From the NCBI GenBank assembly GCA_001874305.1, contig MPCU01000010.1, forward strand, positions 1-64,000: DNA of 64,000 bases. Reading direction: 5' to 3'. The notes under the pieces were generated by a model that had not been told where the DNA came from, ran no database searches, and saw only the letters and a list, made by a program, of their open reading frames with translations. Position 1 is the stretch's first letter, and the number at the start of each line of letters is the position of its first letter. The DNA comes from Bacteriovorax sp. MedPE-SWde (GTDB taxonomy: Bacteria > Bdellovibrionota > Bacteriovoracia > Bacteriovoracales > Bacteriovoracaceae). Both the position numbers and the translations under genes were made by a program. Below, one piece after another: positions 17,432 through 20,051 of the stretch.

Positions 17432-17689
17432 CTATAAGTAATTGAGTACGACCTTGTGGCCATATTTATTTATAAAATCATGTACGGTAATTTGACATGA
17501 TATAACACTTTCATTTACAGAGCAAAGCTTGCAAGCATTTACCCCTGAACAACTTGAGGCCACCGGGATTCCATTTACAATGAGTAGCTCCATTAAAGTC
17601 ATCTGATCTTCTCCAGAAATTATCTGAGAAGATATAGCAATTTCCTTAACAGTCTTTTGAGATGCATTACCAAAAACTATTAATGACAC
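17432..17689 (-). CDS. Small 2Fe-2S ferredoxin-like protein
   Basis: LMELLIVNGIPVASSCSGVNACKLCSVNESVISCQ (C-x5-C-x2-C-x8-C). Confidence 0.5.
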   Translation of the reverse strand: MSLIVFGNASQKTVKEIAISSQIISGEDQMTLMELLIVNGIPVASSCSGVNACKLCSVNESVISCQITVHDFINKYGHKVVLNYL

Positions 17690-18879
17690 TTTAGTATACC
17701 AGTCCTAGGTTCTTTAAATATTTCAAAACCTTTATTGTAGGAGATGATATCTACCTTACCAAGGGTTGGAACATTGTAAACTGATCGATCTTTATCAATA
17801 ATTTTCTTTCTTCCATAAATCTCTTGAATAGTTCTTTCTGGATAGAGAAGATTTACATGTCTTTTAAGATTTATAATTTCTTTTGGTCCATCCGAGCTTG
17901 AACTGCTCTTTAGAACATTATTAATTAACTGTTCTGAATGAATAAGGTTCTTCGCTAAGATAAACTCTGTTCCCTTATTTGCCGAGCAGATAGCAGCATT
18001 AAAAGAAGAGATAGGATGAGATTTAAGTATAAACTCACCACTAATGTATTTCTGAGAACTTGGCATTGAGCTTGTTAGTGATATAAAGAAGTTATCCTCA
18101 TTAACAAAGACACCAAAGAAATTTGATTTTATTTGATTTGTTTTACGTTGAAATATTGGATTAGAACTAAATAATCTATTGTCAAAGTTACAAGTATATT
18201 TATCTGTAGCATTAAAGAGTTGTGTGACTTTAAATACGTCTTTATTCATTGTTCTTAAGCTTCTGATAACTTTTTGAAAGCTAGGAGATTGAATACTTTC
18301 TCCTTGTCGAACAATTTGATTACCCTTAAATACATACCTTCTTATTTGTTTGTCCTTATAAAATGCTACTTTATTTCTCTCTATGAAGTTTTGAATTGGA
18401 GCAGAAACAGGAATTAATGATGGAAACTTTGAATCAATCTCTCTTGCATAGAAATTTAGGCTTCTGCGTACCTTATAATACTTCCTTACTTCTTCGAGTC
18501 CGACTATAAAGCTAACACTCTCTGATGACTTTGGTGCAGTTACAAGAAAGAACTCTTTTCCTTTGTACTTTACGAAATTAAGTGTTCTTGAGTTTAAGGT
18601 TGTAGCATCTGGTCTTGAGGCCAGCTGTATCAAAGACCACTTAAAGAAATTATCTAATAGTGATCCCTTATGATCTTGCATGAATTTAGCATATCTTTTA
18701 TTAAGCTTAGAATTTTCACTATGAACAAGGATCTTCTCTCTTTTGACAGGGCACATGATGTCAGTCTTTTTAAGTTTAGCTTCATTAACATCGTCAAATG
18801 AAAATTTTGCACAGGAACTTAGAAGAAGTAGTGATAAGAGAGTTATTGAATAAACTTTTTTATTAATCATGTATCTCAA
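17680..18879 (-). CDS. Lipoprotein of unknown function
   Basis: Lipobox LLLLSSCAKF; 399 aa ORF. Confidence 0.6.
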   Translation of the reverse strand: MRYMINKKVYSITLLSLLLLSSCAKFSFDDVNEAKLKKTDIMCPVKREKILVHSENSKLNKRYAKFMQDHKGSLLDNFFKWSLIQLASRPDATTLNSRTLNFVKYKGKEFFLVTAPKSSESVSFIVGLEEVRKYYKVRRSLNFYAREIDSKFPSLIPVSAPIQNFIERNKVAFYKDKQIRRYVFKGNQIVRQGESIQSPSFQKVIRSLRTMNKDVFKVTQLFNATDKYTCNFDNRLFSSNPIFQRKTNQIKSNFFGVFVNEDNFFISLTSSMPSSQKYISGEFILKSHPISSFNAAICSANKGTEFILAKNLIHSEQLINNVLKSSSSSDGPKEIINLKRHVNLLYPERTIQEIYGRKKIIDKDRSVYNVPTLGKVDIISYNKGFEIFKEPRTGILKCH

Positions 18880-19260
18880 CTATAGTTTAAAGTTTTCTAG
18901 GTTTGAAAATTCGTTATCGCCTTCACTAATTAGCTCTATTTCGTCCTCTTCTTGAGACGAGCTAAGTTTGTGTTCTTGATACTCCGCAGAGTTCCTTAGT
19001 TCCTTTAACTTCGCACTAGGCGCCTTTAGTACAAATAGGGTCCAGAATCCTGTTTCACAATTCACAGTTGATTTTATTTCAAAGTCTACTTTGTAAGTAG
19101 AAAAGAGATTTGCAATAAGATCCAGCTCTTTTTCTCTATAACCCTTACTTCTGATAGGTGGGTTAGGTATGAAGTAAGTGAAAAGCTCGGTTATTTTGTC
19201 TTGATCATTAGACTTTTTATTGAATAAAAACATCATGTTTCCTTTTATTGTAAACTTCAA
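18880..19260 (-). CDS. Hypothetical protein
   Basis: Uninterrupted ORF abutting the downstream lipoprotein gene on the same strand. Confidence 0.5.
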   Translation of the reverse strand: MKFTIKGNMMFLFNKKSNDQDKITELFTYFIPNPPIRSKGYREKELDLIANLFSTYKVDFEIKSTVNCETGFWTLFVLKAPSAKLKELRNSAEYQEHKLSSSQEEDEIELISEGDNEFSNLENFKL

Positions 19261-19345
19261 ACTTCGTTCTAAAGGTTGTGTGCTATTAGTATAATGGAAA
19301 AGATTACCTATTTAAAATAATTCTGCAATTTTTGAAAAATAAAGT

Positions 19346-19351
19346 TATAAT
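19346..19351 (+). promoter_or_regulatory. Putative -10 element for sRNA candidate
   Basis: TATAAT about 7 nt upstream of predicted 5' end; -35 is weak. Confidence 0.45.
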
Positions 19352-19357
19352 TTAATT

Positions 19358-19432
19358 GATCGACAGGATGTCGTCGCAAGAGTAGGCAGGATGCCGAAGA
19401 AACGGGCCTTATTGCAGTAGGGCCCGTTTTTT
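19358..19432 (+). ncRNA. CsrB/RsmZ-like CsrA-sequestering sRNA candidate
   Basis: Hairpin CGAC-AGGAT-GTCG (19361-19373), hairpin GGC-AGGAT-GCC (19385-19395), intrinsic terminator; both loops expose GGA within CAGGATG. Confidence 0.6.
19402..19432 (+). terminator. Intrinsic terminator of the sRNA candidate
   Basis: ACGGGCC-TTATTGCAGTAG-GGCCCGT followed by TTTTT. Confidence 0.85.
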
Positions 19433-20051
19433 ATTTATACAATTCAAAAAGCTTTAATTCTTCTTTTTTTATTCCTGGTGCTAATTTTATAATTTCAAAC
19501 TTTCCATTATCAATTTTAAAAACACCTTTATTTGTTACAACTTTATTTACTACAGAATGCCCTGTTAGAGGTAGGTCACACGTTTTAACAAGTTTAGATA
19601 CTCCGTCCTTAGATTCATGACCCATCATAATGATTACTTCTTTCGCTCCATTTACGAGGTCCATTGCACCACCCATTCCTGTAACTTTCTTACCAGGTAT
19701 CATCCAGTTTGCAAGACTTCCATCTGTATCAACTTGCATACCACCAAGGATGCAAAAATCAATATGGCCACCTCTTATCATTCCAAAACTTAAAGAGCTA
19801 TCAAAGAAGCTCGCTCCTTTAATTGTTGAAATTGTTTCTTTACCTGCATTAATTAAAGTAGGTGAGACTTCACTTTCACAGGGCCTCTGTCCCACTCCAA
19901 GTACTCCATTTTCAGAGTGAATCATATAGGTGTGATTCTCTGGAAGGACCTCACTTACAATTGTTGGTTGTCCAATACCTAGATTTATACTTGAGTTCTC
20001 TGGGATTAAGTTTAGAACTTCTTGTGCCATTTCATGTTTTGTCCAAGTCAT
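19431..20051 (-). CDS. scoB: 3-oxoacid CoA-transferase, subunit B
   Basis: LGIGQPTIVSEVLPE; SENGVLGVG; FCILGGMQVDTDGSLANWMIPGKKVTGMGGAMDLVNGAKEVIIMM. Confidence 0.88.
   Translation of the reverse strand: MTWTKHEMAQEVLNLIPENSSINLGIGQPTIVSEVLPENHTYMIHSENGVLGVGQRPCESEVSPTLINAGKETISTIKGASFFDSSLSFGMIRGGHIDFCILGGMQVDTDGSLANWMIPGKKVTGMGGAMDLVNGAKEVIIMMGHESKDGVSKLVKTCDLPLTGHSVVNKVVTNKGVFKIDNGKFEIIKLAPGIKKEELKLFELYK

Follow-up and report, generated by a model that had tools for sequence, protein, structure and literature searches.

A conserved candidate RNA resembling a minimal CsrA decoy in a family of predatory bacteria that also carry FliW

The control of CsrA by sRNA sponges has been described chiefly from Gammaproteobacteria, whereas control by the protein FliW has been described elsewhere. 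The two mechanisms have been called mutually exclusive (PMC7366521), a species survey found FliW and the BarA-UvrY system, which drives Csr sRNAs, to be anti-correlated at -0.97 (PMC4682653), and another review states that joint action of FliW and sRNAs "remains to be determined" (PMC7652899). The sRNAs CsrB/CsrC and RsmX/Y/Z are free-standing RNAs with GGA in hairpin loops; CsrB has about 18 repeats of the type CAGGA(U/A/C)G (PMC7652899), and E. coli UvrY binds an 18-nt palindrome at csrB/C (PMC4682653). McaS of E. coli is primarily a base-pairing sRNA of enterobacteria, but it has at least two GGA motifs and also binds CsrA (PMC7652899). The TwoAYGGAY motif is a two-hairpin RNA with GGA loops reported from human gut, Gammaproteobacteria and Clostridiales (PMC2864571). 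In Campylobacter jejuni, a CsrA-FliW organism, the leader of the flaA mRNA titrates CsrA through two adjacent GGA hairpins 21 nt apart, with high CsrA affinity (PMC4894983). An RNA-seq study of Bdellovibrio reported AP-specific RNAs and merRNA, without homology outside Bdellovibrio (PMC3627812). No paper reporting a small RNA from Bacteriovorax or Halobacteriovorax, or relating one to CsrA, was found, although an earlier report cannot be excluded because most subscription papers lay outside the literature searched.

The locus considered here lies in a stretch of 64,000 nucleotides (the window) from Bacteriovorax sp. MedPE-SWde (GCA_001874305.1, contig MPCU01000010.1), part of a genome of 3.76 Mb. 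Several homologous loci come from named records of Bacteriovorax, Halobacteriovorax and Bacteriovoracaceae, that is, from the Bacteriovoracales of the Bdellovibrionota, a group of predatory bacteria. An earlier note, made from the sequence alone, proposed a compact CsrB/RsmZ-like sRNA with two AGGAU hairpin loops, a TATAAT box and an intrinsic terminator in an intergenic interval of the window. This observation is confirmed, with all elements at, or within a few bases of, the place indicated. The features of the locus are as follows.

17680-18879 (-): divergent putative lipoprotein gene, in conserved synteny (91 of 104 homologous loci), with no Pfam match
18880-19260 (-): divergent gene for a small protein of a family of unknown function, with the core FTYFIPAPPxRxxGYREKxFD, the nearest upstream gene in 69 of 104 homologous loci, with no Pfam or NCBIfam match
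19296-19308 (no strand assigned): conserved upstream dyad GGAAAAGATTACC (family consensus GGAAAAnnTTTnCC), a candidate activator-binding site
19346-19351 (+): -10 box TATAAT
19359-19432 (+): predicted RNA gene of about 75 nt (5' end predicted)
19361-19373 (+): hairpin 1, CGAC-AGGAU-GUCG, with GGA at 19366-19368
19385-19395 (+): hairpin 2, GGC-AGGAU-GCC, with GGA at 19389-19391
19397-19432 (+): intrinsic terminator hairpin with U-run and a conserved loop motif (here UUGCAG), which probably also terminates the convergent CoA-transferase gene
19431-20051 (-): convergent CoA-transferase gene

No ORF accounts for the interval, and a small coding ORF was rejected because the loop insertions found among homologues (AGGAU to ANGGAU) would break any reading frame. 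The three hairpins were recovered by folding (-33.0 kcal/mol, z -4.9), but this z-score comes mainly from the terminator, as the stretch containing hairpins 1 and 2, cut just inside hairpin 2, folds no better than shuffled sequences (z -0.14). Similarly, two CAGGAWG motifs within 33 nt occur at 6 places in this genome against 5 for a reversed control, and the motif pair alone is, thus, not beyond chance. The case therefore rests on comparison between genomes.

A DNA search found homologues in 11 of 57 relatives. A covariance model built from 12 sequences (R1) matched 19353-19431 of the window at 79 bits and found the RNA in 117 of 132 genomes of the family, and a second model built from 92 sequences with an extended first stem (R2) matched the window at 62.4 bits and found the RNA in 118 of 132 genomes, including 72 of the 75 good assemblies. 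There is normally one strong copy per genome; the second identical copies in two genomes (G123 and G124) sit at the very ends of contigs. A further genome (G101) has the RNA with its terminator lost in a run of N, and in the other genomes without a hit the neighbouring lipoprotein gene is either not found or, in three of them (G079, G090 and G114), cut or near a contig end, as expected of assembly gaps. No intact locus retaining the neighbours but lacking the RNA was found. Outside the family, only 2 of 247 genomes of the phylum matched at E<=0.001, both below 36 bits, and the loci inspected (L044-L050, L194) were not accepted as homologues, because they lack the promoter, the two-hairpin layout or the terminator. 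One of these (L048 1505-1576, -), from another family of the phylum, carries two strong GGC-AGGA-GCC hairpins between suhB-like and fliL-like genes, with no terminator. Exact-pattern hits in other phyla have paired GGA hairpins but no terminator, and one (L163) is in coding-like repeats. They include two-hairpin ACAGGAWGU...GGCAGGAWGCC elements in unrelated phyla (loci L144, L147, L155, L158, L159 and L170), which are repeated in L147, L158 and L159/L170 and are more numerous than a rough chance estimate predicts. A REP-element origin was considered for these hits, and no transposase was seen among the ORFs next to five of the loci, but their nature remains unresolved.

The stems covary strongly. 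For 18 pairs in 92 aligned homologues, 89.3% of cells are paired, against 77.1% when partners are shuffled and 41-54% when partners are slid by 1-3 columns, and there are 253 cells changed on both sides against 91 expected. With the 13 core pairs the corresponding figures are 95.5% against 84.8%, and 143 against 37. A separate count with ungapped arms of hairpin 1 gave 570 pairs against 462 +/- 8 for re-dealt arms. In the alignment of 92 homologues, 100% of the cells of hairpin 2 are paired. The relatedness of the sequences is a caveat for the shuffled controls, but less so for the slid control. The loops keep the A(N)GGA(N) signature of CsrA/RsmE (PMC7652899). Among 104 homologues, hairpin 1 carries AGGAU, AGGAA, AGGAC or AUGGAU in 102 and AUGAA in 2, whereas hairpin 2 carries AGGAN, AAGGAN, ACGGAU or a longer AAAGGAU in 96 and lacks GGA in 8; none lacks GGA in both hairpins. 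GGA is lost from one hairpin in about 10% of homologues, two of them in the window's own genus. AUGAA replaces AGGA(U/A) in hairpin 2 of these two (L065 and L079) and in hairpin 1 of L108 and L127, the same substitution in opposite hairpins in two genera. The hexaloop variants AAGGAU, ACGGAU and AUGGAU are among the loops that CsrA/RsmE prefer (PMC7652899). The two GGA cores are 17-24 nt apart (mode 19, and 20 nt in the window), inside the range of 10-63 nt that one CsrA dimer can bridge and close to the spacing in the flaA leader of Campylobacter (PMC4894983), from which one RNA per CsrA dimer is inferred.

TATAAT or TATACT is present in 87 of the 103 homologues with an assigned -10. The dyad GGAAAAnnTTTnCC was found in 98 of these 103, in 86 of them 48-51 nt upstream of the -10, and has only five matches in the whole genome. 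It is retained in a genus in which the usual upstream genes are gone (locus L061) and, thus, belongs to the RNA; a dedicated activator is inferred. The possibility that the dyad is a general flagellar promoter element was rejected, because its only match near a flagellin (L198) overlaps what reads as a FliA-type promoter. The terminator stem changes freely, with covariation, but its loop keeps [G/A]CAG in 104 of 104 homologues and GCAGG(G/A) in 93, with a full AGGA in 26, and no such loop was found in other terminators of the window. This conserved GCAGG is not explained by CsrA binding alone; a third, weaker CsrA site and a pairing seed are both possible. Hairpins with AGGAA, or AGGAU in L057, lie directly at or after the stop codon of flgE (hook protein) in three loci (L053 1476-1563, -; L193 about 1532-1603, -; L057 1513-1584, -), followed in L053 and L193 by a terminator with the same UUGCAGG loop, and may be CsrA sites or a 3'UTR-derived sponge in the genus of the window and beyond. 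GGA hairpins plus a UUUGCAGG terminator were also seen in L055 (1505-1595, +), where they lie in the 3'UTR of a secreted trypsin-like protease gene, and L058 (1554-1646, -), from another genome of the same genus, has a closely similar sequence.

The genome has one csrA (92.7 bits), in the order flgL-csrA-fliW. The protein has R44 of the RNA-binding surface and a C-terminal extension carrying N55, the residue tied to FliW binding (PMC13407953). Its closest solved match is the CsrA chain (chain D) of the FliW complex 5DMB, aligned over residues 2-74, and the neighbouring FliW best matches the FliW chain of the same entry. CsrA and FliW are each found in 124 of the 132 family genomes, the same 8 genomes lacking both. 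One flagellin leader of this genome carries a hairpin CGUAUAC-ACGGAU-GUAUGCG upstream of its Shine-Dalgarno, the layout expected of a CsrA target, and the flagellin leader in L181 (about 1420-1480, +) has a near-ideal CsrA hairpin (ACGGAU hexaloop) upstream of an AGGAGG Shine-Dalgarno, resembling the arrangement at B. subtilis hag.

The candidate RNA shares with CsrB/CsrC and RsmX/Y/Z the GGA hairpin loops with the CAGGAUG repeat, an intrinsic terminator and an upstream palindromic site resembling in position the UvrY/GacA site, but it has only two GGA hairpins, a different dyad sequence and a conserved terminator loop, is found in Bdellovibrionota and coexists with FliW. Rfam searches at gathering and relaxed thresholds gave only chance-level hits: no Csr/Rsm or TwoAYGGAY model matched at gathering score in the window, at E<=10 in the locus or in 8 further loci. 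The term CsrB/RsmZ-like used in the earlier note, therefore, holds for the motif and the inferred function only, and the alternative it offered, an unnamed two-hairpin family, is the appropriate classification. Relative to the TwoAYGGAY motif, the loop is mostly AGGAU rather than AYGGAY, and a terminator and promoter are parts of the present family. The flaA leader of Campylobacter belongs to a coding mRNA, whereas the present RNA appears to be a separate non-coding gene, and no sequence relation to McaS was found.

These results strongly favour, in the absence of expression or binding data, a dedicated small RNA of about 75 nt that antagonizes CsrA, titrating it by molecular mimicry and working beside FliW, which acts allosterically. 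It is probably transcribed from its own sigma-70-type promoter, under an activator that binds the conserved dyad, and presents two hairpins, predicted to be of high affinity, that one CsrA dimer can bridge. When abundant, it would take CsrA off flagellar and other mRNAs and relieve their repression. With only two sites per RNA, it must be made in quantity to titrate CsrA, which fits a strong promoter with a dedicated activator site, although this too is inference. As the same CsrA is of the FliW-bound type, two antagonists, one RNA and one protein, would act on one CsrA.

A less likely alternative is a dual-function or base-pairing sRNA, in which CsrA binding is secondary (or protects the RNA) and the main action is pairing of the terminator-loop GCAGG, or of other single-stranded parts, with target mRNAs. 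The constancy of this loop while the stem around it changes is consistent with such a role, for which McaS provides a precedent, but the linker between the hairpins, the usual place for a seed, is not conserved, and conservation is concentrated on the two A(N)GGA loops. It seems improbable that the RNA binds a protein other than CsrA, or decoys the ribosome through its AGGA loops, which also resemble a Shine-Dalgarno core: although CsrA binding was not measured, loop variation follows the CsrA rule, including one inserted base between A and GGA, with closing C-G or U-G pairs, and csrA is present in nearly all carriers. A cis-acting leader, attenuator or 3' terminator of a neighbour is very unlikely, despite the terminator abutting the stop codon of the CoA-transferase gene in the window, because both neighbours are on the other strand there, the downstream neighbour changes family and strand between genomes (with the upstream gene on the minus strand, it is on the minus strand in 59 loci and on the plus strand in 40) and the promoter and dyad are conserved, including in a genus in which the usual upstream genes are gone.

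A more far-reaching possibility, which remains tentative, is that in a whole order of predatory bacteria one CsrA is held at once by FliW, reporting the flagellin state, and by a dedicated minimal sRNA under a dedicated activator responding to another signal, perhaps prey or growth state, with this RNA also being dual-function and its terminator loop a third working element; this would end the rule that sRNA and FliW control exclude each other. Here csrA, fliW and a sponge-like RNA co-occur across nearly a whole family, which makes the joint use of the two kinds of control, thought not to occur together, open to testing. The RNA is also among the smallest plausible CsrA sponges, with about one dimer per molecule, and is a candidate regulator of the motile-to-growth switch of predatory bacteria.
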